Shown here in pieces: positions 1,836 through 20,892 of a stretch of 54,441 bases of DNA (the stretch's first letter is position 1; each line of letters begins with the position of its first letter). Location: positions 19,961 to 74,401 of the forward strand of contig NZ_BAAAYN010000003.1 of the NCBI RefSeq assembly GCF_039536245.1, given 5' to 3'. The stretch comes from Cryptosporangium minutisporangium (lineage in GTDB: Bacteria; Actinomycetota; Actinomycetes; Mycobacteriales; Cryptosporangiaceae). The notes beneath the pieces were generated by a model that saw only the letters and a list, made by a program, of their open reading frames with translations, was not told where the DNA came from and searched no databases. Made by a program: the position numbers and the translations under genes.

Positions 1836-1841
1836 CGCACG

Positions 1842-1870
1842 CGGGCCCGGCCGCACCGCGGCCGGGCCCG
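1842..1870 (+). terminator. GC-rich hairpin after the thiolase operon
   Basis: Perfect 13-bp inverted repeat (CGGGCCCGGCCGC and its complement) around a 3-nt loop, starting 7 nt after the thiolase stop. No T-run follows, as is usual for actinobacterial terminators. It separates the first operon from the dioxygenase promoter region. Confidence 0.6.
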
Positions 1871-1900
1871 ACGCGACCCGCGCGTCGAGCGCCTACATCA

Positions 1901-1913
1901 TGTATAAAGTATC
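1901..1913 (+). promoter_or_regulatory. TGTATA-type motif, site 1 (upstream of TauD-like gene)
   Basis: TGTATAAAGTATC in an AT-rich island between the terminator hairpin and the dioxygenase start, 37 nt before the ATG. It shares TGTATA(A/T) and the following TA with sites upstream of other catabolic units in the window. It could be an operator, an extended -10 element, or both. Confidence 0.5.
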
Positions 1914-1937
1914 AATCACGCTAACACTGGAGGAGAC

Positions 1938-2738: not shown

Positions 2739-2748
2739 CGGTTCCGGC

Positions 2749-2773
2749 CCCGGGCGCGCAGGGCGCGCCCGGG
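2749..2773. terminator. Bidirectional terminator between convergent genes
   Basis: Perfect 11-bp inverted repeat CCCGGGCGCGC with a 3-nt loop, in the 38-bp gap between the dioxygenase (+) and the SDR (-). Its position between convergent stops supports a terminator for both strands. Confidence 0.65.
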
Positions 2774-2776
2774 CCC

Positions 2777-3538: not shown

Positions 3539-3570
3539 GCGGTCTCCTCCGGTCGAACGATCGCGCCTAC

Positions 3571-3585
3571 TATATATTGTCTACG
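3571..3585. promoter_or_regulatory. AT-rich divergent promoter/operator, site 2
   Basis: TATATATTGTCTACG lies in the 67-bp divergent gap between the SDR (-) and ligase (+). TGTCTA differs by one base from the TGTATA core seen elsewhere, so this is the weakest member of the family. Its place at a divergent catabolic promoter is the main support. Confidence 0.35.
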
Positions 3586-3605
3586 ACATCGACAGGAGCA
3601 CATCG

Positions 3606-5201
3606 ATGCTGGCCGCACTGCTGCTCGATCACCCGTTCCCCGACGACGAGCCGCTGCTGCACACGGCCGACCGGATGCTGACCGCCGGCGAGGCCCGCGC
3701 CGGGGTGACCGAGCTCGCCCAGCGGCTCCGAGCCGGCGACGTCCGGCCGGGCACCGCGGTCGCGGTCCGGCTGCCGAACAGCCCCGAGTCGGTGATCGCG
3801 ATGACCGCGATCTGGTCGGCCGGTGCCGTCTTCGTGCCGGTGAACGCCGCCGCTCCCGCCGCCGAGGCCGAGCGGGCGCTGGAGGCGGCGCGGCCGGCCG
3901 CGCTGGTGGAGCCCGCCCCGGACGGCGGTCTCCACGTGCGCCACCTGGACGGAGCGGTCCGGACCTACCCGGACGGCACAGCGTTCCTCACCTGGACGTC
4001 CGGCACGACCGGCACGCCGAAAGCCATCCTGCACACCCACGACGGGTACCTGGAGCTGCTCGACCGGGTGCTCGGTCCGCTGCGCGGCCGGGGCCCGTCG
4101 GGGCGGCCACCCTCCCCGAACCTCATTCCGGTGTCGCTCGCGCTCAACAGCGGTATCTACAACGCGCTGTTCGGTCTGCGTGCCGGCGCCGCGCTGGTGA
4201 TCATGGACCGGTTCCGGCCGCGCGAGTTCGCCGACCTGCTCGCCCGGTTCGGCATCCGCTCCACCGTGCTGCCCCCGGCCGCGATCGTGACGCTCAACGC
4301 GTCGGACGTGGAGGCGCTCTCGCCGCTGCGATACGTCCGGAGCATCACCGCGCCGCTCTCCCCGCTCCACGCGCGCCGGTTTACCGACCGGTTCGGCGCG
4401 TTCGTCCTGAACAGTTACGGCCAGGCCGAGGTCGGCGAGGTGATCGGCTGGACCGCCGCGGACGCGAAGGCGCATCCGGAGAAGGTCGGCGCCGCCGGGC
4501 GTCCGCTCCCGGGGGTGGCCGTGCGGATCGCGGCCCCGGAGGGCGAGATCGGCCCGCTGTGGGTGCGGCCGCCGCGGATGGCGTCCGGGTACGCGACCGG
4601 CGAGCAGCTCGCCGACCGGATCGACGCCGAGGGTTTCGTCGACACCGGTGACCTCGCCCGCGTCGACGCCGACGGGTTCGTCTGGATCGAAGGGCGGGCC
4701 GGCGACCTGATCAACCGCGGCGGCAACAAGGTGTTCCCCGAGCAGGTCGAGGAGGTCCTGCGGCTGAGCCCGGCGGTCGCCGAGGCCGCGGTGGTCGGCG
4801 CACCCGACGACCGGCTGGGCGAGGTGCCGGTGGCGTTCGTCGTCGACGCGCCGGGCGCTCCGCCCGCTCCCGACGAGGCGCTCGCCAAGCTGTGCCGGGA
4901 GCACCTGGTGGCGTACAAGGTGCCGGTGGCGTTCGTCGTCGACGCGCCGGGCGCTCCGCCCGCTCCCGACGAGGCGCTCGCCAAGCTGTGCCGGGAGCAC
5001 CTGGTGGCGTACAAGGTGCCGGTGGCGTTCGTCGTCGACGCGCCGGGCGCTCCGCCCGCTCCCGACGAGGCGCTCGCCAAGCTGTGCCGGGAGCACCTGG
5101 TGGCGTACAAGGTGCCGGTGGCGTTCCACCGCGTGGACGCCCTGCCCCGCACCGAGGTCGGCAAGCTGCGCCGGGGTGACCTCGTCCGGCGGCTCGCGTA
5201 A
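3606..5201 (+). CDS. Class I adenylate-forming acyl-CoA ligase with triplicated C-terminal segment
   Basis: 531 residues. AMP-binding motifs are complete: WTSGTTGTPKA (P-loop), NSYGQAEVGE, DTGDLARVDADG, the A8 hinge RAGDLINRGGNKVFPEQVEE, and PRTEVGKLRR with the C-terminal catalytic Lys. The family joins a carboxylic acid to CoA through an acyl-AMP. Without the repeat the protein would be about 467 residues, in the range of short ligases. Three identical 32-residue copies (VPVAFVVDAPGAPPAP...) sit inside the mobile C-terminal domain between A8 and the catalytic lysine, adding 64 residues. The domain could still close, but activity is doubtful. The start has AGGAG 8 nt upstream. Divergent from the SDR gene. 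Confidence 0.85.
   Translation: MLAALLLDHPFPDDEPLLHTADRMLTAGEARAGVTELAQRLRAGDVRPGTAVAVRLPNSPESVIAMTAIWSAGAVFVPVNAAAPAAEAERALEAARPAALVEPAPDGGLHVRHLDGAVRTYPDGTAFLTWTSGTTGTPKAILHTHDGYLELLDRVLGPLRGRGPSGRPPSPNLIPVSLALNSGIYNALFGLRAGAALVIMDRFRPREFADLLARFGIRSTVLPPAAIVTLNASDVEALSPLRYVRSITAPLSPLHARRFTDRFGAFVLNSYGQAEVGEVIGWTAADAKAHPEKVGAAGRPLPGVAVRIAAPEGEIGPLWVRPPRMASGYATGEQLADRIDAEGFVDTGDLARVDADGFVWIEGRAGDLINRGGNKVFPEQVEEVLRLSPAVAEAAVVGAPDDRLGEVPVAFVVDAPGAPPAPDEALAKLCREHLVAYKVPVAFVVDAPGAPPAPDEALAKLCREHLVAYKVPVAFVVDAPGAPPAPDEALAKLCREHLVAYKVPVAFHRVDALPRTEVGKLRRGDLVRRLA
4824..5126 (+). repeat. Exact tandem triplication, 96-bp unit, in frame
   Basis: Three identical 96-bp units (4824-4919, 4920-5015, 5016-5111) followed by 15 nt of a fourth (GTGCCGGTGGCGTTC). 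96 is divisible by three, so the frame is kept and each unit adds 32 residues. A single ancestral copy would be flanked by the same 15-bp direct repeat, which explains expansion by slippage. The lack of any mismatch implies a very recent event or an assembly error. Confidence 0.95.
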
Positions 5202-5341
5202 AATGCCGCAAACGGCGCATAGCGGCAGCAACCTCGCGTCAGTGCACGTGGATCACGTCAGAATTCGAGAAGCGCTGGTCTTTGCGGCCCAACTAGCGTG
5301 GCCACGGACGAGGTGACCGCCGCCGCACGGATGGAGACACG

Positions 5342-7741
<2,400 letters not shown>

Positions 7742-7876
7742 CCTGGATTCGCCGATGCGCCACGGAGTCGCCCGCTGCGGAGCGGCTTCGTGGCGCGTTC
7801 GGGCGCCCTTTGTGGCGTGGAGCGCCGTTCACATCATGATGACAAATGCGGGCGCAGTTGTTATATCGGTGCAGGA

Positions 7877-7904
7877 TTGACTTTTGTCGGTAAAGGTCTA
7901 TAAC
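7877..7904 (+). promoter_or_regulatory. Sigma70-type promoter of the secreted protein gene
   Basis: TTGACT (7877-7882) and TATAAC (7899-7904) with a 16-nt spacer, about 60 nt before the GTG start. A small hairpin (CGAGAC/GTCTCG, 7919-7936) and the ribosome site GAAGGAG (7951-7957) follow. This is the clearest consensus promoter in the window. Confidence 0.65.
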
Positions 7905-7962
7905 GGACACGCGTACCTCGAGACAGAAGCGTCTCGGGGCCCTTTCCCCCGAAGGAGTACGC

Positions 7963-8499
7963 GTGTTGTCTTCAACTCTCCGCAAGCGTCTCGCGACGGC
8001 CGTGACGTTAGGCGCCGCGGCCGGCGCCGTCCTGCTGGTCGGCGACCCCGCCCACGCCGACACCGTGACCGTCAACTACGCGTGTGAGACCCCGCTGTCC
8101 GGCACGCAGACCGGCGACGTCGAGGTCACGGTCACCGCACCGGCCACCGCGACGGTCGGCGAGACCGTCGAGATCACGGTGACGACCGGGCCGACTCCGG
8201 TCGTCGCGCCGATCGAGTTGGCGGCCGGGAGCGTGACCCCGAGCGCCGAAGGCATCGTCTCCGGAGCCCAGACCGGCACGGTGATCGTCACCGGACCACC
8301 GAACGCGGAGGCGATCCCGGCCGGATCGCCGGTGCAGCTGCCCCCGATGATCGGACAGCTGACGCTCACCACGGCCGGGCAGGTCGATCTGACGCCTGGC
8401 ACGGCCTCGGCGGTCGCGAGCACCATCTTCGGCACGTTCACGATCCCCTGTACACCGGCGTCGCCGCCCGGCGTCGCCGCATCCATTCAGGTGAGCTGA
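7963..8499 (+). CDS. Small secreted beta-rich protein of unknown function
   Basis: 178 residues. Residues 1-32 form a Sec signal: positively charged LRKR, hydrophobic run, then DPAHA before DTVTV. The mature part is rich in Val, Thr, Ala and Pro, suggests a beta-sandwich, and has two cysteines (YACETP near the N-terminus, TIPCTP near the C-terminus) that could form one disulfide. It resembles short actinobacterial exported domains of the DUF6801 kind, a recollection only. GTG 7963 is chosen from GAAGGAG 6 nt upstream; TTG 7966 is the alternative. It is monocistronic with its own strong promoter, so it may be abundant. Function unknown. Confidence 0.75.
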   Translation: MLSSTLRKRLATAVTLGAAAGAVLLVGDPAHADTVTVNYACETPLSGTQTGDVEVTVTAPATATVGETVEITVTTGPTPVVAPIELAAGSVTPSAEGIVSGAQTGTVIVTGPPNAEAIPAGSPVQLPPMIGQLTLTTAGQVDLTPGTASAVASTIFGTFTIPCTPASPPGVAASIQVS

Positions 8500-8506
8500 T
8501 CCCGGA

Positions 8507-8542
8507 CAGGTCCTAGGCCCGGGCGGCCGGGCCGAGGACCTG
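8507..8542. terminator. Strong hairpin at convergent gene ends
   Basis: 16-nt arms (CAGGTCCTAGGCCCGG and its near-complement, one mismatch) with a 4-nt loop. It starts 8 nt after the secreted-protein stop and runs into the last codons of the convergent acyl-CoA dehydrogenase, so it can serve both strands. Confidence 0.65.
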
Positions 8543-9670
8543 CCTGGCGATGATCACCTGCTGGATCTGGCTGGTTCCCTCGTAGATCCGGAACAGCCGG
8601 GCGTCGCGGTAGAACCGCTCGACCGCGACCCCTCGCATGTACCCGGCGCCGCCGTGCACCTGGACCGCGCGGTCGGCGACCCGGCCGACCATCTCCGAGC
8701 AGAAGTACTTCGCGGCGGCCGGCCCGGTGATCCGGTCGGTGCCGGCGTCGTAGGCGCGGGCGACGTCGAGCACGAGCGCGCGCCCGGCGTACTGGTCGGT
8801 CACCGAGTCGGCGATCAACCCCTGGACGAGCTGGAACCGGGCGATCGGCTTGCCCCCCGCGTTCCGGGAGCGGGCGAACTCGCACGCCTCGTCAACCAGC
8901 CGCGCGGCCATCCCGACGCAGAGCGCCGCGATGTGGATCCGGCCGTGCGCCAGACACTGCGCCGCGATGCGGAAGCCGTTGTTGAGGCCCGCGGCGCCGC
9001 CGACGACGGCGTCCGACGGGAGGATGACCTCGTCCAGGTGGACGTCCGCGGTGTGCGCGCCGAACTGGCCCATCTTCCGGTCCGGCGCGCCGACGGTGAG
9101 GCCGGGTGTGTCCGCCGGGACCAGGAACGCAGTGATGCCGCGGTTGCCCGGGGCGTCCGGGTCGGTGCGGGCGAACACCATGAACACGTCCGCGACCGGC
9201 GCGTTCGTGATGTACCGCTTGGACCCGTTCAGCACCCAGCGGTTGCCCTCGAGGCGGGCGCTGGTGGTGAGCGCCGACGGATCCGAACCGGCGTCGGCCT
9301 CGGTGAGCGCGAACGACGCGGTCACCTCACCGGACGCCAGCCGGGGGAGCCAGGACTTCTTCTGCTCCTCGGTGCCGCCCTCCAGCAGCACGTGCCCGGC
9401 GATCCCGTTGTTCGTGCCGAACAGCGACCGCAGCGCGGGCGTCGTCCAGCCGAGCTCGAACACCAGCTCGCACTCCTGGGCGACGGTCAGGCCGAGCCCG
9501 CCGTACTGCACGGGGATCGTGAAGCCGTAGAGGCCCATGTCCTTGCAGGCGGCGACGATCGCCTCCGGGACGGCGTCGGTCGTGTCGATCTGCTCTTCGC
9601 GGGGGACGACCTCGTTCCGCACGAACGTGCGCACCGCATCGACGATCGCGGTCAGGTCAGCAGAATCCAC
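8513..9670 (-). CDS. Acyl-CoA dehydrogenase
   Basis: 385 residues, full length. ASFALTEADAGSDPSAL is the FAD/substrate signature, VQVHGGAGYMR the C-terminal FAD contact, and RIYEGTSQIQ carries the catalytic base Glu364 in the usual medium/short-chain position. It introduces an alpha-beta double bond in an acyl-CoA and passes electrons to ETF. It is the last gene of a minus-strand operon: an acyl-CoA dehydrogenase small-type subunit, a CoA-transferase, then this gene, with a 3-bp gap to the CoA-transferase. Chain length or ring preference cannot be predicted. Confidence 0.92.
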   Translation of the reverse strand: MDSADLTAIVDAVRTFVRNEVVPREEQIDTTDAVPEAIVAACKDMGLYGFTIPVQYGGLGLTVAQECELVFELGWTTPALRSLFGTNNGIAGHVLLEGGTEEQKKSWLPRLASGEVTASFALTEADAGSDPSALTTSARLEGNRWVLNGSKRYITNAPVADVFMVFARTDPDAPGNRGITAFLVPADTPGLTVGAPDRKMGQFGAHTADVHLDEVILPSDAVVGGAAGLNNGFRIAAQCLAHGRIHIAALCVGMAARLVDEACEFARSRNAGGKPIARFQLVQGLIADSVTDQYAGRALVLDVARAYDAGTDRITGPAAAKYFCSEMVGRVADRAVQVHGGAGYMRGVAVERFYRDARLFRIYEGTSQIQQVIIARQVLGPAARA

Positions 9671-9673
9671 GAA

Positions 9674-10954
9674 TCAGTCCTCCGGGGTGCGGGCGCCGAG
9701 CACGCCGGCGGCGCGCAGGTCGGCGAGTTCGTGCGGGGTCAGGCCGAGCTCGGTGAGGACGGCGTCGGTGTGCGCGCCCAGTGCCGGGACCGGGCCCATC
9801 GGTGCGGTGTGGCCGGCGACGATCGCGGGTGGCAGCAGCGCGCGCACCGGTCCGGCGGGGGTGTCGACGTCGCGCCACCGATCCCGGGCGGCCAAGTGCG
9901 GGTGCTCGACGACCTCGCTCGGCGTCCGGTAGACCGAGTTGCCGATCCCGGCCGCGTCCGCCGCCGCCTGGACGTCGACCAGCGACCGTTTTCCGCACCA
10001 CTCGCCGAGCAGCGCGTCGAGTTCGGCGCGGTGCGCCACCCGGTCGGGGTTGTGCCGGTACCGCTCGTCCGTGACCAGGTCGGGGCGCCCGAGCAGGTCG
10101 GTGGCGAGCCGTGCCCACTCCGCGTCGTTGGTCGTCCCGAGCACCACCGTGCGGCCGTCCGCGGTGTGGTAGGCCCCGTACGGCGCGACCGCGGGCGAGC
10201 CCATGCCGACCGGCTGCTGGTCGACACCGGTCGCCGCGGTCCAGGTCAGGGGGTACCCCATCAGCTCGGTCATCGCGTCGAACATGCTCACCGCGAGCCG
10301 GGCGCCGACCCCGGTGGTGGCCCGCTCGGTGAGCGCGCCCAGCACCGCGATCGCCGCGTAGAGGCCGGTCACCCCGTCCGCGAACGGCGGCCCCGGCTTC
10401 GCCGGCGCGCCCGGCGTCCCGGTGATCGCGCAGACACCGGTCTCGGCCTGCACCAGCAGGTCGTACGCGCGTTTGCCGGAGAGCGGGCCTCCGGTGCCGT
10501 ACCCGGAGATCTCGACGCTCACCAGCCGCGGATGGTCCCGGTCCAGGTCGTCGGCGCCCAGCCCCAGCCGGGACACCGCACCCGGCGCGAGGTTCGAGAC
10601 CAGCACGTCCGCGGAGTCGAGCAGGCGATGCAGCACGGTCCGCCCGTCCGGGTGCCGGACGTCGAGCGCGACCGACTCCTTGCCCCGGTTGAGCCAGACG
10701 AAGTGCGCGGCGAGGCCTCCCACGACGTCGTCGAAGCCGCGGGTGAAGTCGCCACCCCGCGGGTTCTCCACCTTCAGGACGCGGGCGCCGAGGTCGCCGA
10801 GCGTCCGGGTGCAGAGCGGAGCGGACACCGCCTGCTCCAGCGCGACCACCGTGACGCCGGCCAGCGGCTGGCCCGGATTGACGCCGTGACGCGGTCCACG
10901 CGGGTCGTGGAGCACATCGGGGTGAGAATCCGCGTGCCGATCGTCAGAAGGCAT
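9674..10954 (-). CDS. Family III CoA-transferase (CaiB/BaiF-like)
   Basis: 426 residues. The N-terminal LAGVTVVALEQAVSAPLCTR and DLGARVLKVENPRGGDF, the NRGKESVALDVRHPDG segment and ISGYGTGGP are hallmarks of formyl-CoA/carnitine CoA-transferases. These move CoA between acids through an enzyme-bound aspartyl anhydride; the candidate Asp lies in the YDLLVQAETG region. The ATG at 10954 overlaps the upstream dehydrogenase by 11 bp. About 29 residues precede the family core, so a downstream GTG could be the true start. It probably activates the pathway acid or recycles CoA without ATP. Two similar genes occur at 22922 and 25785. Confidence 0.9.
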   Translation of the reverse strand: MPSDDRHADSHPDVLHDPRGPRHGVNPGQPLAGVTVVALEQAVSAPLCTRTLGDLGARVLKVENPRGGDFTRGFDDVVGGLAAHFVWLNRGKESVALDVRHPDGRTVLHRLLDSADVLVSNLAPGAVSRLGLGADDLDRDHPRLVSVEISGYGTGGPLSGKRAYDLLVQAETGVCAITGTPGAPAKPGPPFADGVTGLYAAIAVLGALTERATTGVGARLAVSMFDAMTELMGYPLTWTAATGVDQQPVGMGSPAVAPYGAYHTADGRTVVLGTTNDAEWARLATDLLGRPDLVTDERYRHNPDRVAHRAELDALLGEWCGKRSLVDVQAAADAAGIGNSVYRTPSEVVEHPHLAARDRWRDVDTPAGPVRALLPPAIVAGHTAPMGPVPALGAHTDAVLTELGLTPHELADLRAAGVLGARTPED

Positions 10955-12032
10955 GGTCGAGATGATCGCTGACGCGGGTCCAGTGCGTGGCCGCTGAGCC
11001 GAGAATCTCGTCGTCGGTGATCGCGCGCTTGTAGTAGAGGTGCGCCTCGTGCTCCCAGGTGAACCCGATGCCGCCGTGCAGCTGGATCGCGTCCGCGGCG
11101 ACCGCGGCCGCGGCTTCGGCGCAGTAGGCCTTCGCGAGCGCCGCGGCGACAGCCGGGTCCTCGTCCGCTTCGTGGGCCGCGGCCGCGTGCCGGGCCGCCG
11201 AGCGCGCCAGCTCGACCTTGATCAGCATGTCCGCGGCGCGCTGCTTGATCGCCTGGAACGAGCCGATCGGCCGCCCGAACTGGACCCGCTGCTTCGCGTA
11301 GGCGACCGTGACGTCGAGGCACTGCTGTGCGACGCCGACCAGCTCGGCGGCGAGCAGGACGCGGGCGGCGTCGAGGGCCGGCTCGAGACCGGTCGTGTCG
11401 GTGCCGACCCGGGTCGCGGGAGTGCGGAGGAGCTCGACGACGGCCTGGCGGCGGGTCAGGTCGAGGCTCATCAGCGGCGTCCGGGTGAGGCTCTCGTCGG
11501 CGTCCACCGCGAAGACGCCCGATCCGTCCGGGCCTTCCGCCACCACCAGGAGCAGACCGGCGGTCGCGCCGTCGACGACCCGCTCCACCCGGCCGCTGAG
11601 CCGCCACTCGTTCCACAGGTGCGGCTCGGCGGTGACGGCGGGTTCGCCGGCCGCCGCGTCGGGGAGCGCGACCGTCGCGGTGAGCGTCCCGGCGGCGATC
11701 GGCGGCAGCCAGCGCTTGGCTGCCTCGGCGTCACCGGTGGCGAGCAGCAGCGGTACCGCGAGCCCGACGGTGGAGAACAACGGTGCGCAGACCAGCGTCC
11801 GCCCGGCCGCCTCGAAGACGTCGGCGAGCGCCGGGAGCGGCAGCCCGAGGCCGCCGTACTCCGCGGGGACGCCGAGACCGGGAAGACCGGTCTCCCGTGC
11901 CCAGCGCCGCCAGGCCTCCGGGTCGTACCCGGCCGGGGTCGCCATCAGCTCCCGGATGCGGGACGGCGGGCAGGAGTCGGCGAACACGGTGGCGGCGAGT
12001 TCGCCGACGTCCGCACCGAAGGGCTCGTCCAT
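10944..12032 (-). CDS. Acyl-CoA dehydrogenase, small-subunit type
   Basis: 362 residues. The C-terminal FAD region is typical (RVQFGRPIGSFQAIKQ, IQLHGGIGFTWEHEAHLYYK), but the middle beta-domain is eroded and the usual W-x-T/S FAD signature is missing. This pattern is known for the partner subunits of heterotetrameric steroid acyl-CoA dehydrogenases (ChsE1-ChsE2, FadE28-FadE29 types), where only one subunit keeps each half site. Its partner could be the divergent gene at 12120. Reaction: desaturation of a CoA ester, probably of a ring or branched side chain. First gene of a three-gene minus operon. Confidence 0.85.
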   Translation of the reverse strand: MDEPFGADVGELAATVFADSCPPSRIRELMATPAGYDPEAWRRWARETGLPGLGVPAEYGGLGLPLPALADVFEAAGRTLVCAPLFSTVGLAVPLLLATGDAEAAKRWLPPIAAGTLTATVALPDAAAGEPAVTAEPHLWNEWRLSGRVERVVDGATAGLLLVVAEGPDGSGVFAVDADESLTRTPLMSLDLTRRQAVVELLRTPATRVGTDTTGLEPALDAARVLLAAELVGVAQQCLDVTVAYAKQRVQFGRPIGSFQAIKQRAADMLIKVELARSAARHAAAAHEADEDPAVAAALAKAYCAEAAAAVAADAIQLHGGIGFTWEHEAHLYYKRAITDDEILGSAATHWTRVSDHLDHAF

Positions 12033-12080
12033 GCACAGGCTCCACGTCTGTTGCTTTGAGGGCCAGCTGATGCATCAAGT

Positions 12081-12094
12081 ACTTTGTATAAAAT
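12081..12094. promoter_or_regulatory. TGTATA-type motif, site 3 (divergent dehydrogenases)
   Basis: ACTTTGTATAAAAT lies in the 87-bp divergent gap between two acyl-CoA dehydrogenases. It has the TGTATAAAA core and, on the left, GTACTTT, which is the complement of the AAAGTAC seen at site 4. A single site could control both directions. Confidence 0.5.
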
Positions 12095-12119
12095 CTAACA
12101 TGCGACTACCCTCCGGCTC

Positions 12120-13418
12120 ATGACTCCGCCACCGGAACTCGTGGCCTGCGCCACCCCGGACGAGGCCGTCGCGGCCGCGCTGGACTGGGTCCGCCGGAGC
12201 GCCCCGTCGTCCTGGGTGCGGGCGGCCGAGACGGGCGGTGCCTCCGCGGTCCGGCAGGTCCGCACCCCCGACGAGTACCGCACCTGGTACCCCACGCTCG
12301 CCGAGTCCGGTCTGGTGGTGCCGGCCTGGCCGGTTGCGTACGGCGGGCTGGACTGGGCACCGGCGATGGCGGCCGCCGCCGATCGAGCGCTGCGCCCGTA
12401 CCACCTGCCCCGGCTCAACCCCCTCGGCCTCAACCTCGCCGCCCCCGCGCTGTTCGCGCACGGCACCGAAGACCAGCGGCTGCGGTACCTGCCGCCGATC
12501 GTGCGCAACACCGAGGTCTGGTGCCAGCTGTTCAGCGAACCCGGGGCGGGCAGCGACCTGGCGTCGCTCTCCACCCGGGCGGTGCGCGACGGGGACCACT
12601 GGCGGATCACCGGGCAGAAGGTGTGGACGACGTGGGCGCACCTCGCCGACTACGCGGTCCTGCTCGCCCGCACCGACCCGGACGCGCCGAAACGGGCGGG
12701 CATCACGTACTTCCTGATCGCGCTCGACCAGCCGGGCGTCGAGATCCGGCCGCTGCGGCACCTCGGCGGGGAGATCGACTTCAACGAGGTGTTCCTCGCC
12801 GACGCGGTGGTGCCGGACGCCCAGCGGGTCGGCGCGGTGAACGACGGCTGGCGGGTCGCACGGGCGACGCTCTCCGGCGAGCGGCAGATGGTGTCCGGCT
12901 CCGGGTCCGGCGGGGTCGACCGGATCGGTGGCGCCGGCGCCGGGCGGCTGGTGCGTTTGGCCAAGGAGCGCGCGGCCGCGGTGCCCGGCACTGGCTGGGA
13001 CGACCCGCTGGTCCGCGCCGACGTCACCCGGCTCTGGGCCGAGGAACAGCTGCGCGCCTGGACCAACCAGCGGGTGCGGGCGACGGTCAAGGCCGGGCGG
13101 GCACCGGGGCCGGAGAGCTCGATCGGCAAGGTGCACGGCTCCGATCTCAACCAGCGGATCCAGGCCAGTGCGGCGGCGCTGCTCGGGCCGGGCCGGACGA
13201 CGTGGCGGGCCGCCGCGGACGCCTGGTCCGACGCCGTCGAGGCCTATCCGGACGGGATGCCGGCCGAGGTGCGGGGCGCGCTGCGCAGCCGGGCCAACAC
13301 GATCGAGGGCGGAACGACCGAGGTGAACAAGAACATCATCGCCGAGCGGGTCCTCGGGCTGCCGCGGGAGCCCGACCCGTGGGAGGGGAAGCCGTGGCGT
13401 GAGGTGCCTCGTGGCTGA
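12120..13418 (+). CDS. Acyl-CoA dehydrogenase, large-subunit type
   Basis: 432 residues, full length. WCQLFSEPGAGSDLASL is the FAD/substrate signature, QKVWTTWAHLADYAVLLAR the beta-domain, and IEGGTTEVNKNIIAERVLGLPRE the conserved C-terminus of FadE17/FadE26-like enzymes. The catalytic base is probably the Glu in IEGGTTE. These are often the FAD-binding half of heterotetramers, so the divergent small-type subunit (10944-12032) is a natural partner. It opens a plus-strand operon of five genes (to 18768) with overlapping stops and starts. It oxidises an acyl-CoA; the specific acyl group is unknown. Confidence 0.9.
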   Translation: MTPPPELVACATPDEAVAAALDWVRRSAPSSWVRAAETGGASAVRQVRTPDEYRTWYPTLAESGLVVPAWPVAYGGLDWAPAMAAAADRALRPYHLPRLNPLGLNLAAPALFAHGTEDQRLRYLPPIVRNTEVWCQLFSEPGAGSDLASLSTRAVRDGDHWRITGQKVWTTWAHLADYAVLLARTDPDAPKRAGITYFLIALDQPGVEIRPLRHLGGEIDFNEVFLADAVVPDAQRVGAVNDGWRVARATLSGERQMVSGSGSGGVDRIGGAGAGRLVRLAKERAAAVPGTGWDDPLVRADVTRLWAEEQLRAWTNQRVRATVKAGRAPGPESSIGKVHGSDLNQRIQASAAALLGPGRTTWRAAADAWSDAVEAYPDGMPAEVRGALRSRANTIEGGTTEVNKNIIAERVLGLPREPDPWEGKPWREVPRG

Positions 13419-15006
13419 GACCGTGTCGCCGCGCTCTGCTCTGACCTCGGCCTCCGCGGAGACCGGGGGTGCGCGGTTGTGGCGGGCGTTGCGGGAGGCC
13501 GGGGTGCGTGCCGTCTACGGCGACGCCGACCGCGGCCTGCCGGTGACCGCGCGGGTACCGGCGCGGCTGGCTCCGACGCTGGTCGCCGCGCACGAGCGGG
13601 TGCACCGGGACCGTGCGGCGTCGTGGGTGGACGGGGTACTGACGATCGGCGGAGCCGCGGCGGCGTCCGGGGTTCCCGGGTCCGCCGGGGTAACCGGGAC
13701 CTCCGGGGCTGCCGGGCCGTCCGGCGCGGCGGGCCCCGTGCTCGGCGGCGCGCCGGGCGGCTGGCAGGTCTTGCTCGACGAGCCGGACCGCGTGTCGGAT
13801 CTCGTCGCGATGGCGGCGCACGCGGCGGCCACCGGGCGCGGTGTCGCGCTCCGCGTCGACCTCGATCTCGACCGGCCCGCACCGGACCGCCGGGCCGTCA
13901 CGCCGGGCGCCGCTGCATCGGGCGCCGCTGCGTCGGTTGGCCCGATGCCCGCTGGCGCGGGCTCCGGGGGGCCGGACCCGGCCGGGGAGACGGAGGCGGC
14001 GCTCGCACTCCTGACGGCCGCGGAGCGGCCGGTCGTCCTCGTCGGACCCGGTGTGATCGCCGCCGGCGCAGTGCCCGGCCTGCACGCGTTCGCCACCGCC
14101 GGGCAAGTGGGCGTGCTGAACACCTGGGGCGCCAAGGGAGTCTTCACCTGGCAGAGCCCGCACCACTGGGCCACGATCGGCCTGCAGCGCGACGACTTCC
14201 GGCTGGCCGGGCTCGCCGACGCCGACCTGATCGTCGCCGTGGGCCTCGACCCGCACGAGTCGCCGGCCGCGTGCTGGCAGCTGGCGCCGCAGGTCACGAT
14301 CGACCCGGCGTCGCTGGGGACGCTCGCGCTCGCGTGGCGGCGCCCGCCCGGGCTCCCGGAGATGCCCCCGCTGCGGCACCGGCTGGCCGAGGCCACCCAG
14401 CGTGGGTGGACGGTCGAGGCGGGGCCGTTGCCGCCGTCTCGGGTGACCCGGACCTACGGCGAGCTCGCCGCCCGCGGTGGGTTGATCGCCGCCGACCCGG
14501 GAGTCGCCGGCTACTGGGTCGCCCGGACTGTCGGCACCACGGTGCTCGACAGCGTGATCGTCCCGGGCGGCCGCGTCCCGGCGGGTTTCGCGATCGCCGC
14601 GGCGCTGGTGGCCCGGATCGCGTCCCCGGCGCGCCCGGTCCTCGCGGTGCTCGACGACCCCGCGTCGGTCGCCGGGTCCGCGGGTTCGCCCGGGTCCGCC
14701 GGTTCGGCCGCGGTGGCCGCGGGTTCGGCCGCGGCCACCGGGGCGGCCGAGCGTATCGGGGAACTGGTCGAGCTCGCCGCCTCGCTGGGGCTGCCGGTGC
14801 CCGTCGAAGCCTGGTCGGACGACGGACCGGCGCCGGACGCCGTCGCGCACGCCGCACGCCTGCGGGACGCCGTCCACGGCGAGTCGCCGGTCGTCGCACC
14901 CCTGCGGACCGATCCGCACTGGCTGGCCCGGATGACCGACGTCGCCGGACCGGTCGTCGCGTGGAGCCAGATTCTTCCGGCGAACGAGGGGAGTACTCAT
15001 TCGTGA
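13411..15006 (+). CDS. Degenerate thiamine-diphosphate-enzyme homologue with low-complexity inserts
   Basis: 531 residues from GTG 13411, which overlaps the previous stop by 8 bp; a GTG at 13399 is also in frame. The middle part (ERPVVLVGPGVIAAGAV... through VGLDPHES) matches the central domain of acetolactate-synthase-like TPP enzymes. The N-terminal pyrimidine domain keeps a Glu in AAHERVHRDRAA. In the C-terminal PP domain the metal-binding GDG is replaced by LDDPAS, so cofactor binding is doubtful. Two Gly/Ala/Ser/Pro-rich stretches interrupt the fold (about residues 80-110 and 415-440), encoded by short GC-rich repeats. It may be an inactive or regulatory homologue, or a diverged enzyme. 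It lies in the catabolic operon. Confidence 0.65.
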   Translation: MAETVSPRSALTSASAETGGARLWRALREAGVRAVYGDADRGLPVTARVPARLAPTLVAAHERVHRDRAASWVDGVLTIGGAAAASGVPGSAGVTGTSGAAGPSGAAGPVLGGAPGGWQVLLDEPDRVSDLVAMAAHAAATGRGVALRVDLDLDRPAPDRRAVTPGAAASGAAASVGPMPAGAGSGGPDPAGETEAALALLTAAERPVVLVGPGVIAAGAVPGLHAFATAGQVGVLNTWGAKGVFTWQSPHHWATIGLQRDDFRLAGLADADLIVAVGLDPHESPAACWQLAPQVTIDPASLGTLALAWRRPPGLPEMPPLRHRLAEATQRGWTVEAGPLPPSRVTRTYGELAARGGLIAADPGVAGYWVARTVGTTVLDSVIVPGGRVPAGFAIAAALVARIASPARPVLAVLDDPASVAGSAGSPGSAGSAAVAAGSAAATGAAERIGELVELAASLGLPVPVEAWSDDGPAPDAVAHAARLRDAVHGESPVVAPLRTDPHWLARMTDVAGPVVAWSQILPANEGSTHS

Positions 15007-16265
15007 GCGGTACCAGCACCGGCGAACGAACGGCGCCGCGGATCACCGACGAGGCGATCGAGCGGTTACGCCGCCGGATCGGGATCCCGGTACCGAACCC
15101 TGCGCCACCGCACTACCGCGAGCCAGGCGTGGACGCGTTCCGCATCGTCGCGCAGGCCTACGGCGACGACAATCCGCTCTGGAGCGACCGGGACCACGGG
15201 GCGACGACGCGCTGGGGCGGGCCGATCGCACCGCCGCCGCTGGTCGGCGGCGACACGCTGGTCGGCGAGGACTCGGTCACCGGCATCCCGGAGGAGCACC
15301 GGGACCTGATGAAGGGCGATCCGCTGCGCGGCGTGCACGCGTTCTACGCGAGCAGCGCCCGGGAGTGGTGGGCGCCGCTCGAGCCGTACACGCGGGTCCG
15401 ACGCCGGGACGCGCTGGTCGGCGTGCACGACAAGCCGAGCGGCTTCGCCGGGCGAGCGGTGCACGAGTGGACCGGTCAGATGTTCGGCGCCGCGGACGGT
15501 CCGCTGCTCGCCGCGCAGTACAAGCTGATGATCCGCACCGAGCGCGAGAAGGCCCGCGAGCGGAAGAAGTACGCGCAGATCCAGCCCTACGTCTACACCG
15601 ACGCGGAGATCGACGACATCGAAGCCCAGGTCCTGGCCGAGCGGCGGCGTGGCGCCGAGCCGCGCTACTGGGAGGACGTCGCCGTCGGCGACGTGCTCGA
15701 CCCGCTGGTGAAGGGGCCGCTGACCGTCACCGACATGGTCTGCTGGCACGTCGGCATGGGCATGGGGCTCTACGCGATCCGCCCGCTGGAGCTCGCGGTC
15801 GTCAACCGGCGCCGGATCCCGCGCTTCTACCACCGCGACGAGCTCAACGTCCCGGACGTGATGCAGCGCGTCCACTGGGACCCCGAGTTCGCGCGCCGCT
15901 CGGGTAATCCGACGACGTTCGACTACGGCCGGATGCGCGAGACCTGGCTGATCCACGCCTGCACGAACTGGATGGGCGACGACTCCTGGCTGTGGAAGCT
16001 CGACTGCCGGTTCGAGGCGTTCAACTACGTCGGCGACACCCAGTGGGTCCGCGGCGAGGTTGTCCGGCACTACCTGGCCGAGGGCGGCCGGCCCGCGGTG
16101 GACGTCACCCTGCGAACCGTGAGCCAGCGGGACGTCGAGACCACCACCGGCTCGGCGACGATCCTGCTGCCGAGCCGTGAGCACGGACCGGTTCGCCTCC
16201 CCGACCCGCCCGGCACCGATCTGGAGGGCGCGATGGCGGCGATAGTGGATCGGTTCGCGTCATGA
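15003..16265 (+). CDS. MaoC-like double hot-dog acyl-CoA dehydratase (FAS1-like dehydratase domain)
   Basis: 420 residues from GTG 15003 (GTGA overlap with the previous stop). The N-terminal half is a FAS1-like dehydratase domain (FRIVAQAYGDDNPLWSDRDH, with WGGPIAPPP), and the C-terminal half repeats a hot-dog pattern (YWEDVAVGDVLDP, NPTTFDYGRMRETW). In such two-domain proteins one half keeps the Asp/His hydratase motif and the other is structural. The likely role is syn hydration of a 2-enoyl-CoA made by the dehydrogenase pair upstream. The ending overlaps the next gene (ATGA). Confidence 0.82.
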   Translation: MSGTSTGERTAPRITDEAIERLRRRIGIPVPNPAPPHYREPGVDAFRIVAQAYGDDNPLWSDRDHGATTRWGGPIAPPPLVGGDTLVGEDSVTGIPEEHRDLMKGDPLRGVHAFYASSAREWWAPLEPYTRVRRRDALVGVHDKPSGFAGRAVHEWTGQMFGAADGPLLAAQYKLMIRTEREKARERKKYAQIQPYVYTDAEIDDIEAQVLAERRRGAEPRYWEDVAVGDVLDPLVKGPLTVTDMVCWHVGMGMGLYAIRPLELAVVNRRRIPRFYHRDELNVPDVMQRVHWDPEFARRSGNPTTFDYGRMRETWLIHACTNWMGDDSWLWKLDCRFEAFNYVGDTQWVRGEVVRHYLAEGGRPAVDVTLRTVSQRDVETTTGSATILLPSREHGPVRLPDPPGTDLEGAMAAIVDRFAS

Positions 16266-17062
16266 GTGAAACCCCGGGTCTGGCCGTCGACCGGGACGGA
16301 ACGATCCTGCGGATCACGCTGAACCGTCCGGAGAAGCGCAACGCGATCGACGACACGATGGTCGCCGGCCTGATCGACCTGATCATCGGCGCGGGCAGCG
16401 ACGAGTCGGTGCGGGCGGTCCTGCTCGCCGGGGCCGGCGAGCACTTCTGCTCCGGTGCCGACATCATCGCCCGGAACGCAGGCGTCGACGGCCGGCCGCG
16501 GGTCGGCAGCATCCAGCGCCGCCTGCCCTGGCAGGCCCATCGGCTGGTGCCGGTGCTGCTGGAGACGCAGGTCCCGGTGGTCTGCGCGGTGCGGGGCTGG
16601 GCGGCGGGCATCGGCCTGTCGCTGGCGCTCGCCGCCGACGTCACGGTCGTCGCCGACGACGCGCGGCTCTGGGCGCCGTACGGTGCCCGCGGCTTCACCC
16701 CGGACGGCGGGATCACCTGGATGCTTCCGCGGCGCATCGGCGAGGTGCGGGCGCGCCGGATGCTGCTGCTCGGGGAGCGGGTGGACGGGGCGACCGCCGC
16801 CGAGTGGGGCCTGGTCGACCGGGCGGTCCCGGCCGCCGACGTCGACGCCGAGGCAGCCGGTCTCTCTGCGACGCTGGCCGACGGACCCACGGTGGCGCTC
16901 GGACTGGCGAAGTCGCTGCTGCACACCGGCCGGGCGGCGTCGCTCGAAGCGCACCTGCGGGACGAGGCGTTCGGTATGGAGCTCTCCTCCCGCAGCGAGG
17001 ACTTCCGGGAAGGGCTCGCCGCGTTCCGGGAGAAGCGCTCGCCGAAGTTCACCGGCCGATGA
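16262..17062 (+). CDS. Enoyl-CoA hydratase/isomerase family protein (crotonase fold)
   Basis: 266 residues. LNRPEKRNAIDDTM and GEHFCSGADI give the CoA site and oxyanion hole, and CAVRGWAAGIGLSLALAAD the second oxyanion glycine. Of the two hydratase glutamates, the first is replaced (APYGARGF), and the second appears as Asp in TPDGGITW. That suggests isomerase, hydrolase or ring-cleaving activity rather than plain hydration. It overlaps both neighbours by ATGA junctions, so it is tightly coupled within the operon. Confidence 0.88.
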   Translation: MSETPGLAVDRDGTILRITLNRPEKRNAIDDTMVAGLIDLIIGAGSDESVRAVLLAGAGEHFCSGADIIARNAGVDGRPRVGSIQRRLPWQAHRLVPVLLETQVPVVCAVRGWAAGIGLSLALAADVTVVADDARLWAPYGARGFTPDGGITWMLPRRIGEVRARRMLLLGERVDGATAAEWGLVDRAVPAADVDAEAAGLSATLADGPTVALGLAKSLLHTGRAASLEAHLRDEAFGMELSSRSEDFREGLAAFREKRSPKFTGR

Positions 17063-18768
17063 GCAGCCCGTACCGCGGGCTGCGGATCGAACGGCGCGGC
17101 CCGGTCGGCTGGCTGGTGTTCGACCGGCCGGACGTCGGCAACGCGATGGACGCCGGAATGCTCGACGACCTGCCTCGGGCCTGGGCCGAACTCGACGCCG
17201 ACCCGAGCGTCCGGGTCATCGTGAACACCGGGCGCGGACCGGCGTTCCAGACCGGTCTCGACGTCCGGCAGCTCGCGCGGGACCCCGCCGCGCTGCGCGA
17301 GCAGTCCCGGCGGACCAAACGCGCTGAACTGCGGTTGACCGGGTGGCACAACGGCGTCGGCAAGCCGGTGATCGCCGCGGTCAACGGCGTCTGCGCCGGG
17401 GGCGGCCTGCACTTCGTGGCCGACGCCGACTTAGTGCTCGCCGCGGAGTCGGCCACGTTCCTCGACCCGCACGTCTCGGTCGGCCAGGCGAGCGTGTACG
17501 AGCTGATCGGCCTGGCCCACCGCGGCGCTGTGGAGCCGGTGCTGCGGCTCGGACTGACCGGCCGGCACGAGCGGATGGACGCCGCCCGCGCGTACGCGCT
17601 GGGCATCGTCGGCCAGGTCGTTCCGGACGACGCCCTGGCCGAGACCGCCCAGGCCCTCGCCGAGACGATCGCGGACCGCCCCCCGGACGTGCTGCGCGCC
17701 ACCAAGCGGACGCTCTGGGCAGCGCTCGAAACCGGCCGCACCACCGCCCTCCGCGCCGCCGCGGGCCGCGCGGCGTCGGCCCGCGCGGCGACTTCTCCCG
17801 CCGAGGCCGGCACCGAGACCGCTTTCGCCGACGCCGCGGGGCCAACCAGCGCGGGCGGCCTACCGCCTGCGGCTGCGCTAGCGACCGCGGCGGCTGTGCC
17901 CCGTGACCGATTCGCCATCGAGAGGACCGCGATGACCGCGTTGTCAGAACCGTCGGAGACCTACCGCTACACCGACTTCGAGACGCTGCGGATCGAGCGC
18001 CGCGGGCCGGTCGGCTGGCTGCTGTTCAACCGGCCCGAGCGACTCAACGCGATGACGAACCAGATGCGCGACGAGCTCGCCATCGCCTGGGTCGAGCTCG
18101 ACCGCGATCCGGCAGTCCGGGTGATCGTCAACACCGGCGAAGGACGGGCGTTCCAGACCGGCGTCGACGTCGCGGAGATCGCGTCCGACGGCGTCGGCAT
18201 GGAGCGGTACCGGGCGTCGATGGAGAACTTCGACGTGCACTTCACCGCCTGGCACCAGCAGGTCGCCAAGCCGGTCATCGCGGCCGTCAACGGCGTCTGC
18301 GCCGGCGGCGGCTTCCACTTCGTCGCCGACGCCGACGTGGTCATCGCGGCCACCGACGCGCAGTTCACCGACCCGCACGTCTCGATCGGCCAGGTGGTCG
18401 CGATCGAGGCGATCGGGCTGCTGCGCAAGATGCCGTTCGAGCCGGTGATGCGGATGGCGCTCACCGGTCGCCACGAACGGATGTCGGCCGAACGCGCCTA
18501 CCAGCTCGGCATGGTCAGCCAGCTGGTGGAGCCCGACCAACTGCGGGACGCCGCACAGGAACTCGGCGAGCTGATCGCGCGGAACTCTCCGGTGGCGATG
18601 CGTGCCACGAAGCGCGCGCTGTGGGGGGCGTTGGAGACCGGCCTGACGGAGGCGTGCCGCGCGGGGGCCAAAGACCTGGTCAGCGTGTGGGGCCACCCGG
18701 ACCAGACCGAGGGCCCGGCGGCCTGGGCCGAGAAGCGCGAGGCGAAGTGGGCGCCACTGAGCGACTAA
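17059..18768 (+). CDS. Fused double crotonase (two tandem enoyl-CoA hydratase-like domains)
   Basis: One open frame of 569 residues holds two crotonase domains: residues 1-230 (IERRGPVGWLVFDRP, GPAFQTGLDV, NGVCAGGGLHFVADAD) and about 305-569 (IERRGPVGWLLFNRP, GRAFQTGVDV, NGVCAGGGFHFVADAD). They are clearly similar and derive from a tandem duplication. The roughly 60-residue linker is Ala/Pro/Ser-rich. Both domains have DPHVS where hydratases have the first catalytic Glu, so the chemistry is probably not simple hydration. An ATG at 17932 with AGAGGA upstream would start the second domain alone, so one fused and one short product are possible. ATG 17059 overlaps the upstream stop. Confidence 0.85.
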   Translation: MSSPYRGLRIERRGPVGWLVFDRPDVGNAMDAGMLDDLPRAWAELDADPSVRVIVNTGRGPAFQTGLDVRQLARDPAALREQSRRTKRAELRLTGWHNGVGKPVIAAVNGVCAGGGLHFVADADLVLAAESATFLDPHVSVGQASVYELIGLAHRGAVEPVLRLGLTGRHERMDAARAYALGIVGQVVPDDALAETAQALAETIADRPPDVLRATKRTLWAALETGRTTALRAAAGRAASARAATSPAEAGTETAFADAAGPTSAGGLPPAAALATAAAVPRDRFAIERTAMTALSEPSETYRYTDFETLRIERRGPVGWLLFNRPERLNAMTNQMRDELAIAWVELDRDPAVRVIVNTGEGRAFQTGVDVAEIASDGVGMERYRASMENFDVHFTAWHQQVAKPVIAAVNGVCAGGGFHFVADADVVIAATDAQFTDPHVSIGQVVAIEAIGLLRKMPFEPVMRMALTGRHERMSAERAYQLGMVSQLVEPDQLRDAAQELGELIARNSPVAMRATKRALWGALETGLTEACRAGAKDLVSVWGHPDQTEGPAAWAEKREAKWAPLSD

Positions 18769-18833
18769 CCCGCAACGCGCGTACCCGCGATGTGCGCTCC
18801 GGGCGGGCGTCCGGCGGGGGTGCTCGCCCAGCG

Positions 18834-19096
18834 GGCCGATTTCGCGAACATCAACCTCTGCGCGTGTCCGGAGAGGTTGGGTTCCCGAAAATCCACCTCT
18901 GCGGGCCGCGGCAGAGGTTGGTTTCCCGAAAACTCGCTCCCGCGAGCCGGGGGAGCGGTTGGGTTCCCGAAAATGCATCTCTGCGGGCCGCGGCAGAGGT
19001 TGGGTTCCCGAAAATGCATCTCTGCGGGCCGCGGCAGAGGTTGGTTTCCCGAAAACTCGCTCCCGCGAGCCGGGGGAGCGGTTGGGTTCCCGAAAA
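18834..19096. repeat. Array of seven 41-bp hairpin repeats
   Basis: Six near-identical boxes GGTTGGGTTCCCGAAAA (some GGTTGGTTTCCCGAAAA) start at 18875, 18916, 18957, 18998, 19039 and 19080, exactly 41 bp apart; a decayed seventh lies at 18834. Between boxes are 24-bp segments that form hairpins with the box edges: CCTCTGC/GCAGAGG in three units and CGCTCCC/GGGAGCG in two, so stem sequence changes while pairing is kept. 41 is not a multiple of three and all frames look non-coding. It fills most of the 549-bp gap between the fused crotonase and the FadD3-like gene. Confidence 0.9.
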
Positions 19097-19100
19097 GTCG

Positions 19101-19134
19101 CCCGAGGCCCGGCGCTCCACGCGCGTGCCTCGGG
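19101..19134 (+). terminator. Hairpin directly after the repeat array
   Basis: CCCGAGGC and GCCTCGGG, perfect 8-bp arms with an 18-nt loop, begin 4 nt after the last 41-bp box. It may be the terminator of the upstream operon. No T-run follows. Confidence 0.35.
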
Positions 19135-19150
19135 CCACGCCGCGCGCCTC

Positions 19151-19206
19151 GTGCCGCGTGCCCCGTGCCCCGTGCCGTGCCCCGTGCCGTGCCCCGTGCC
19201 GTGCAC
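19151..19206 (+). repeat. GTGCC/CCGTGCC short tandem repeats
   Basis: Irregular tandem repeats of GTGCC and CCCC units (period 6 to 12 bp) between the hairpin array and the promoter of the FadD3-like gene. No coding potential seen. Probably a slippage-prone simple repeat. Confidence 0.7.
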
Positions 19207-19291
19207 CCCGCGCCTCGAGTTTGCGTCCTTGCGCCTCGGCGCCGCGTCCTCGGCTGCTCGGTTCGTCTCTGCGCGGCTGGCGGATTGATAA

Positions 19292-19304
19292 TGTATAAAG
19301 TACA
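19292..19304 (+). promoter_or_regulatory. TGTATA-type motif, site 4 (upstream of FadD3-like gene)
   Basis: TGTATAAAGTACA, with TGTA/TACA half-sites 5 bp apart, lies 26 nt before the ATG. This is the best dyad of the 13-bp form. It overlaps a plausible -10 (TATAAAG), so a bound repressor would block initiation. Confidence 0.55.
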
Positions 19305-19317
19305 GAGGGAGGTGCTC

Positions 19318-20892
19318 ATGGACGCGGAGATCCCGTCGACGATTCCGGCCGCGCTTCGGCGTGCGGTGGCGCGGTGGCCGAACGAAGTCGCGGTGGTCGA
19401 GGCCGGCCGCCGCGTCACCTGGACCGAGCTGGCCGACCGCGCCACCGCGGTCGCCCGCGCGCTGATCGGCAGCGGGGTGAGCCCCGGCGACCGGGTCGGG
19501 CTGTGGGCGCCGAACTCCACCGAGTGGATCGTGGCCTCGATGGGCGTCTACGCGGCGGGCGCGATCCTGGCCCCGGTCAACACCCGCTTCACCGGTGCCG
19601 AGGGTGCGCAGGCGTTACGCACCGCCGGCGCCCGCACGCTGATCACCGTCACGGATTTTCTGGACACCGACTACGTCCAGGCGCTGGCTGTCGACCCCGA
19701 ACTTCTCGGTTCGCTCGACGTCGTCATCATGTCGGGAGAGCCCGGAAAGCACATCGGATGGGGCGAGTTCCTGGCCCGCGGAGCGGGCGTGGACCACACC
19801 GACGCGGAGCGGAACCTCACCGCAGACGACCCGTCCGACGTCATTTTCACGTCCGGCACCACCGGGCGTCCGAAGGGTGCGTTGCTCACGCACGGGGCGA
19901 GCACCCGCACCTACACGGCCTGGTCGGACGCGGTGGGTCTGCGGCACGGCGACCGGTACCTGGTCGTCTATCCGTTCTTCCATTGCGCGGGTCTCAAGTC
20001 GGCGGTGCTGGCGTGCGTCCTGCGCGGTGCCACGCTCGTGCCCTGCCCGGTGTTCGCGGTGGACACCGTGATGCGGCTGGTCCAGGAAGAGTGCGTCACG
20101 ATGCTGCCCGGGCCGCCGGCGCTCTACCAATCGTTGCTCAACGCGGATCTGAGCGGTTACGACCGGTCATCGCTGCGGCTCGCCGTCACCGGGGCGGCCG
20201 CCGTCCCGGTCGAGCTGGTCCGCCGGATGCGGGACGAGCTGGGCTTCGGATCGGTCGTGACGGCCTACGGGCTGACCGAGACGCACGGGACCGTGACCGC
20301 CTGCCGCTACGACGACCCTATCGAGGTCATCGCGAACACCAGCGGGCGCCCGATCCCCGGGATGGAGGTCCGGATCGTCGACCGCGACGGAACGGACATC
20401 GGGCCCGGTGAGCCGGGGGAGGTGCTCGCACGCGGGTTCGCGGTGATGCGCGGTTACTACGGCGATCCGGAGGCGACCGCGGCGGCGATCGACGCCGACG
20501 GGTGGTTGCGCACCGGCGACATCGGCGTGCTGGACGCGGCCGGCAACCTGCGGATCACCGACCGGATCAAGGACATGTTCATCGTCGGCGGTTTCAACGC
20601 CTACCCCGCCGAGATCGAGAACACGATGCTCGGCCACCCCGGCATCGCGGCGGTCGCGGTGGTCGGGGCACCGGACGAACGACTCGGTGAGGTCGGGTAC
20701 GCGTTCGTCGTTCCGCGCGTCGGTGTCGCGGTCTCGCCGGACGAGGTGCTCGGCTGGTGCCGCGGGCGGATGGCCAACTACAAGGTGCCGCGGTACGCCG
20801 AGGTCGTCGACGCGCTGCCGCTCAACCGCACCGGCAAGGTCGAGAAGATCCGGCTGCGCGCCCGGGCCGCGGCGGCCGTGGAGAAACCGTGA
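19318..20892 (+). CDS. FadD3-like acyl-CoA synthetase
   Basis: 524 residues, full-length class I adenylate-forming enzyme. VIFTSGTTGRPKGALLTH (P-loop), TAYGLTETHG, LRTGDIGVLDAAGNLRITDR, KDMFIVGGFNAYPAEIEN and NRTGKVEKIRL with the C-terminal catalytic lysine are all present. The A8 hinge with IKDMFIVGGFN and the overall length resemble FadD3, the ligase for the HIP propionate formed in steroid ring degradation, but residues cannot settle specificity. ATG 19318 has GGGAGG 5 nt upstream. It begins an operon with a NIPSNAP-like protein and an amidohydrolase, so ligation here probably feeds hydrolytic ring opening. Confidence 0.88.
   Translation: MDAEIPSTIPAALRRAVARWPNEVAVVEAGRRVTWTELADRATAVARALIGSGVSPGDRVGLWAPNSTEWIVASMGVYAAGAILAPVNTRFTGAEGAQALRTAGARTLITVTDFLDTDYVQALAVDPELLGSLDVVIMSGEPGKHIGWGEFLARGAGVDHTDAERNLTADDPSDVIFTSGTTGRPKGALLTHGASTRTYTAWSDAVGLRHGDRYLVVYPFFHCAGLKSAVLACVLRGATLVPCPVFAVDTVMRLVQEECVTMLPGPPALYQSLLNADLSGYDRSSLRLAVTGAAAVPVELVRRMRDELGFGSVVTAYGLTETHGTVTACRYDDPIEVIANTSGRPIPGMEVRIVDRDGTDIGPGEPGEVLARGFAVMRGYYGDPEATAAAIDADGWLRTGDIGVLDAAGNLRITDRIKDMFIVGGFNAYPAEIENTMLGHPGIAAVAVVGAPDERLGEVGYAFVVPRVGVAVSPDEVLGWCRGRMANYKVPRYAEVVDALPLNRTGKVEKIRLRARAAAAVEKP

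Follow-up and report, generated by a model that had tools for sequence, protein, structure and literature searches.

Dispersed 41-bp box-and-hairpin repeats at gene 3' ends in Cryptosporangium minutisporangium

In the accessible part of their description, REP/BIME elements are short palindromes present in many copies; they are mostly extragenic and located chiefly between unidirectional and convergent genes, and many of their units are oppositely oriented or reiterated in tandem (PMC3733652). Another type of bacterial intergenic repeat is found in Neisseria, where dRS3 is a 20-bp inverted repeat, ATTCCC(N8)GGGAAT, and the RS parts measure 30-160 bp, again according to the accessible part of the source (PMC3898611).

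Here we describe a tandem array in a stretch of 54,441 nucleotides (the window) from Cryptosporangium minutisporangium, and the repeat family to which it belongs. As far as the accessible text defines REP/BIME, the family is similar to it: its members are multi-copy extragenic palindromes between tandem or convergent genes. It also resembles the neisserial mosaic elements (dRS3/RS), in that a short conserved box is combined with longer repeats in intergenic arrays, as the accessible part of that source describes them (PMC3898611). However, there are differences to both. A GTAG/CGTC tag at the stem foot is found in 0 of 69 family units (stem-flanking columns, either strand), the genome is without RAYT (PF01797), and the family has a 10-bp box common to adjacent units and a tandem phasing of about 41 bp. 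Since tag and RAYT are missing, the family is not filed in the GTAG/CGTC REP superfamilies. Compared with NIME/dRS3, as far as these are described in the accessible text, the box is only 10 bp, TTCCCGAAAA, and without 6-bp terminal inverted repeats, while the spacer is 31 bp and hairpin-forming. Our best reading is that the family is a new extragenic palindromic repeat, REP/BIME-like. Among the literature matches listed for the box 9-mer, in a collection that mostly leaves subscription papers outside its coverage, none concerned bacterial repeats.

The coordinates of the array and its surroundings are given in Table 1. Seven boxes, one of them degenerate, and six hairpin spacers follow each other in exact 41-bp steps (TRF score 276); the boxes start at 18841 (the degenerate one), 18882, 18923, 18964, 19005, 19046 and 19087. 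The seven-unit array of the original prediction is therefore real, strictly speaking as seven boxes and six spacers, and the 7-bp stems that it named, CCTCTGC/GCAGAGG and CGCTCCC/GGGAGCG, are present as described. The predicted 17-bp box does recur at 41 bp, but the 17-mer GGTTGGGTTCCCGAAAA has only four exact occurrences, i.e. it is exact in part of the units only, and the unvarying core is the 10-bp box. The array was said not to be CRISPR, which fits: its spacers are related hairpins, partly identical and not unique.

Table 1. Features of the array, its neighbours and the loci of the second family. Positions are those of the window unless a locus (L) or contig (C) handle is given.
Feature	Position	Strand	Basis or remark
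41-bp tandem array, seven boxes and six hairpin spacers	18841..19096	+	repeat and box analysis
Unit 1: degenerate box TTCGCGAACA and AACCTCT/AGAGGTT hairpin	18841..18881	+	
Unit 2: stem ACCTCTGC/GCAGAGGT	18882..18922	+	
Unit 3: alternative stem CGCTCCC/GGGAGCG	18923..18963	+	
Unit 4: stem ATCTCTGC/GCAGAGGT, one G-T pair	18964..19004	+	
Unit 5: near-copy of units 2 and 4	19005..19045	+	within 123-bp block duplication
Unit 6: identical to unit 3	19046..19086	+	
Closing box TTCCCGAAAA	19087..19096	+	
Upstream gene, two enoyl-CoA hydratase domains	17059..18768	+	
Downstream gene, AMP-binding ligase	19312..20892	+	
AT-rich motif GATAATGTATAAAGTAC ahead of ligase gene	19287..19303	+	core kept in two congeners (G002, G003)
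32-bp family locus	L147:1208-1775 (C11:41208-41775)		
32-bp family locus	C12:10419-11008		
32-bp family locus	C43:191978-192313		
32-bp family locus	C17:338369-338668		

TRF also reports a 123-bp period with 98% match over 18872-19096, and a three-unit block is duplicated within the array. Because one CGCTCCC unit is an identical copy of the other, covariation inside the array corresponds to about one independent change; the stem types of the array mostly derive from one duplicated 123-bp block. Unit 1 and its left flank have a counterpart on another contig (C23:298258-298328), with about 92% identity over 71 bp, which shows copying between loci. Five stretches, namely four of the 41-nt units and the final 51 nt, were folded as single-stranded DNA and gave z of -2.8, -2.3, -3.3, -0.4 and -2.0, and the RNA fold of 18769-19120 has a z of -4.2. 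A search of 18700-19400 against Rfam gave nothing at the gathering score (the top score was 21.6 bits, with a cut-off of 70). The U-tract terminator pattern is matched at the array zero times on the + strand and twice on the - strand.

The stop codon of the upstream gene lies 72 bp ahead of the array; both enoyl-CoA hydratase stretches of this gene are in a single 569-aa frame. On the other side, the AT-rich motif is found four times in the window when up to 3 mismatches are allowed (1896, 19287, 24972 and 27044), where none is expected, and its 14-base core has three matches within 2 mismatches in a 2.45-Mb sample of the genome, all of them in the window. It is likely an operator or promoter of the gene cluster or of the next transcription unit, and read in this way it means that the array would lie between two transcription units, behind the end of the first and ahead of the start of the second. 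Directly 3' of the array there is a GC-rich CGTGCCCCGTGC tandem repeat (19146-19204), located in a stretch that cannot be aligned to congeners.

The window array is one locus of a dispersed repeat family. Counts were made in 12 contig pieces (2,454,441 of 9,231,419 bases); these contigs had shown matches, so the densities may be too high, and gene positions come from a simple codon-usage caller. The exact box 9-mer TTCCCGAAA is found 104 times in this sample, against 2 in the reversed control, and the copies form 49 clusters, 19 of which consist of a single exact box. Among the 9-mers with 40 or more occurrences in a 1.25-Mb sample it is the most over-represented one, with 66 occurrences where an order-3 Markov model expects 1.5. 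Counting boxes spaced exactly 41 bp apart, with up to 2 mismatches allowed, gives 93 pairs in this genome and 0 in the reversed control. A DNA search detected at least 38 places at E <=0.001 when 40 of 101 candidates were scored, and a covariance model built from 58 units has at least 100 matches. The 48 arrays identified when boxes may have up to 2 mismatches contain 112 units, of which 69 are 41 bp long, 19 are 40, 14 are 42, 7 are 39 and 3 are 43 bp. In the intergenic TRF rows of the sample, period 41 occurs 18 times and periods 40 and 42 once each.

This dispersal is relevant for another alternative, that the array is a local slippage product with no wider meaning. The 123-bp period at 98% match is what slippage would leave, and the block duplication shows that recent slippage or duplication is partly true locally. 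However, it does not explain a dispersed 3'-end family with at least 100 model matches; the slippage-only reading is thereby refuted and retains practically no probability. The lack of other copies, which the original prediction had named as the observation that would count against it, is thus not what is seen in the genome.

The basic unit consists of a hairpin, for which the consensus is ACCTCT..AGAGGT, and of the 10-bp box on its 3' side. The right arm, GAGGTGGTC, precedes the box, and where another unit comes next the left arm CCACCTC follows it. Fuller elements have the form box-hairpin-box, with the boxes either inverted, giving a palindrome of about 50 bp, or direct, and it is the direct-box elements that make up tandem arrays sharing boxes every 41 bp. 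Inverted neighbouring exact boxes read outward in 7 of 7 cases (a looser count has one exception), and several of the inverted elements form almost perfect palindromes about 50 bp long. In the BLAST pairs listed at a cut of 85% and 50 bp, inverted elements from different loci share 85-92% identity over 52-62 bp; several of these alignments stop at the box edges.

The box is better conserved than any other part of the unit, the stem included. The stem shows signs of being maintained. In 58 non-redundant units 72.1% of the 580 spacer-stem cells are paired, compared with 67.9% after shuffling, and the covariation score is 0.250 compared with 0.195; for neither quantity is the observed value reached in any of 500 shuffles. 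Sliding the columns by 1-3 positions gives scores of 0.097-0.165. Two of five covariation measures fail to exceed the shuffles; there is no excess of pairs in which both sides have changed (8 in the 58 units, 244 of 500 shuffles as high) or of pair types (20, 174 of 500 as high). A separate test on the 58 units gave a p-value of 0.0015 for the stem, with two pairs below 0.01 (columns 16-33 and 19-30, zero-based). The stem is kept as a stem, although modestly, and many units look decayed. The covariance-model search and covariation test that had been proposed for the array thus return matches in its own genome and a modestly covarying stem. Selection on pairing, earlier read from the compensatory changes within the array, is supported by the covariation of the family and not by that of the window array. 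A hairpin formed across the box, and not within the spacer, was also considered and rejected: four classes of 146 boxes show no pairing excess (z -2.0 to 1.3).

The family is confined to gene 3' ends. Of the 49 clusters, 26 are in tandem gaps, 19 in convergent gaps and none in divergent gaps, while one is in a called gene and three are near contig starts without a gene pair. Divergent gaps of at least 50 bp make up 385 of 1295 gaps and 34% of the intergenic bases, and the chance of finding no divergent cluster among 45 is 8.6e-9 by bases and 1.3e-7 by gap number. For the 45 intergenic clusters the median distance to the nearest 3' end is 56 bp. Further, a box is found within 150 nt of 45 out of 999 3' ends. 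Relative to the tandem genes the orientation of the boxes is mixed (36 same, 22 opposite).

At ordinary 3' ends of this genome, folding is strongest about 24-36 nt past the stop. In the 26 array-bearing ends that have 28-110 nt before the first box, this stretch outfolds most ordinary ends (the fraction of ordinary ends at least as strong has a median of 0.115), indicating that a resident hairpin often precedes the array. In 13 of the 45 box-bearing ends there are fewer than 28 nt before the box, and here the array is the first hairpin. As in intrinsic terminators, the hairpin of the family comes soon past the stop codon. In contrast to these, it is tandem, boxed, without a U-tract in one orientation and often behind another hairpin: when the 9 nt after the stem are taken with the consensus box, at least 5 T are seen in + sense in none of 69 units, but in - sense in 20 of 69.

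We find it probable that these are lineage-specific extragenic palindromic repeats, REP/BIME-like, in helically phased arrays at gene or transcript ends, with a putative terminator or 3'-protection role. The hairpins would act in RNA at transcript ends, as additional terminators that are indifferent to orientation and poor in U-tracts, or as 3' protection, often behind a resident terminator, and in this way they may insulate the next promoter. Copies would spread between loci and grow in place by block duplication. It should be noted that the role at RNA ends is weakened by the absent U-tract in + sense, the mixed orientation and the frequent resident hairpin.

It is possible, and in our ranking close behind the best explanation, that the repeats are selfish or neutral: they would spread, duplicate and survive where they are least harmful, just behind terminators, and box and stem would be kept for copying and not for the host. 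The resident hairpin that is often ahead of the array agrees with this, as do the longer gaps at array-bearing ends (median 214 vs 146 bp), the similar palindromes at different loci, the failure to find the family in three congeners and a second array family with the same habit (see below). What speaks against selfish spread is that diverged units keep paired stems above shuffles, and that the genome has no Y1 (RAYT-type) transposase: PF01797 gave no match in it at E up to 0.001, while 5 of 14 control genomes were positive. A REP mobilised by RAYT was rejected on this ground. An autonomous element with the boxes as terminal repeats around a gene was rejected as well: in the 2.45-Mb sample there are three places where inverted boxes are separated by more than 150 but no more than 5000 bp, none of them encloses a called gene, and two of the three hold arrays of the second, 32-bp family.

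The exact spacing had led to the proposal of protein sites on one face of the helix. A putative DNA-binding protein would then recognise the box every four helical turns, forming a boundary or a supercoil sink at the ends of transcription units; the gyrase sites in BIMEs provide a model for this. The period is consistent with such phasing, as all units are 39-43 bp and 69 of 112 exactly 41 bp. The stronger conservation of the box than of the stem, the period of 32 bp (about three turns) in the second family, and the fact that clusters are more common in convergent than in tandem gaps (19/178 vs 26/732) point in the same direction. However, a convergent gap has two 3' ends, and counted per end the rates are close (19/356 vs 26/732). 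Further, 19 of the 49 clusters have no second exact box, a linear site needs no covarying stem, and no binding protein was found. We therefore regard a phased protein array as unlikely.

Next, we turn to other genomes. Conserved pairing, which the original prediction sought also in relatives, is kept within the family of this genome, but the covariance model matched 0 of 60 other genomes of the order, the three congeners included, in a search with stricter filters that scored 97 of 1,420-20,474 candidates per genome and so may miss weak members. Box pairs at the exact spacing are absent from the three congeners. Among the genomes searched the family is, judging by sequence matches, restricted to one lineage.

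The orthologous flanks are about 79-88% identical in two congeners, G002 and G003. At the window locus the stretch that does not align is 80 bp in G002 and 33 bp in G003, while in this genome it measures 516 and 581 bp, respectively. A second array locus has 16 and 18 bp in the two congeners, compared with 196 and 224 bp in this genome, and for a third one the values are 20 and 52 bp, compared with 413 and 475 bp. At an adjoining gap without the family it is the congeners that are longer (457 and 837 bp, compared with 164 bp), and the size of a gap is thus no proof by itself. At the three array loci a plain strong hairpin is present in G002 in all three and in G003 in one. The gaps of the congeners do not align with those of this genome, which makes a target duplication unreadable. 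A REP-like family has here spread in one lineage without the usual transposase, and congeners with short orthologous gaps permit a direct test of an effect on transcription against mere persistence at gene ends.

A second array family is present in the same genome. Its box, GTGGTTGTCG = (G)TGGTTGTCG(C), has a period of 32 bp. In the sample TGGTTGTCG occurs 107 times, compared with 20 for the reversed sequence, and 33 neighbouring pairs of the same orientation are exactly 32 bp apart. Of its 12 clusters with at least two boxes, 6 are in tandem and 4 in convergent gaps, 2 are unassigned and none is divergent; for 5 of the 12, a first-family box is found no more than 300 bp away. Pairs with at most 2 mismatches number 226 in this genome and 0 in the three congeners, while three of the other 37 genomes searched have one pair each. 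With 18 non-redundant units, covariation in the spacer does not reach significance, the best z being 1.5.

That two unrelated families share one habit suggests a common process in the lineage, and a second family close to whole helical turns makes the origin of phased repeats testable. A bolder idea, to which we give little credence, is that a novel, RAYT-free machinery of this lineage makes and amplifies box-hairpin units of whole turns (41 and 32 bp) at transcript ends, where they would be used as phased DNA/RNA boundary elements between transcription units.

Beyond the congeners, boxes at 41 bp are found as two pairs each in G014 and G016 and as one pair in G144. In G014 and G016, both of the order, the 41-bp repeats are short and their box is TTCCCGGAAA-like (L037, L038, L040, L041), and the covariance model has no match in these two genomes. 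No pairs of TTTTCCSGGAAAA are present in a sample of 296 genomes of the phylum, which did not include G014 and G016. A scan of genome contigs for TTCCCGAAA-N32-TTCCCGAAA gave at least 117 stretches; among the 80 that were listed about 60 are Bacteroidota by title, and 28 come from one Mediterranea MAG. Many of the 18 loci viewed are true tandem arrays of about 41 bp and a few are two boxes only. All 20 genomes searched via such loci match, having been chosen for them. In the phylum of G439, a genome chosen for its matches, 19 of 198 genomes match, against five with matches in the reversed control, and seven of these matches are one alike, coding-looking sequence. A family shared with other phyla was rejected: the matches there are taken as chance or convergent, and no homology is claimed.

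A few other repeats were seen. The tandem arrays of about 41 bp in Bacteroidota that also contain TTCCCGAAA include L194, L215 and L209 (the Mediterranea MAG) as well as L185, L220 and L235, and the units of the MAG have a AAAGCCCGGGCTTTTTT-type hairpin that resembles a classic terminator. Further dispersed intergenic repeats of the C. minutisporangium genome are located at L107:5009-5128 and 7325-7453, which are matched in all three congeners, and at L107:17710-17811, with a match in G002. Finally, the window contains a perfect 96-bp repeat in 3.2 copies (4822-5126), within a called gene.
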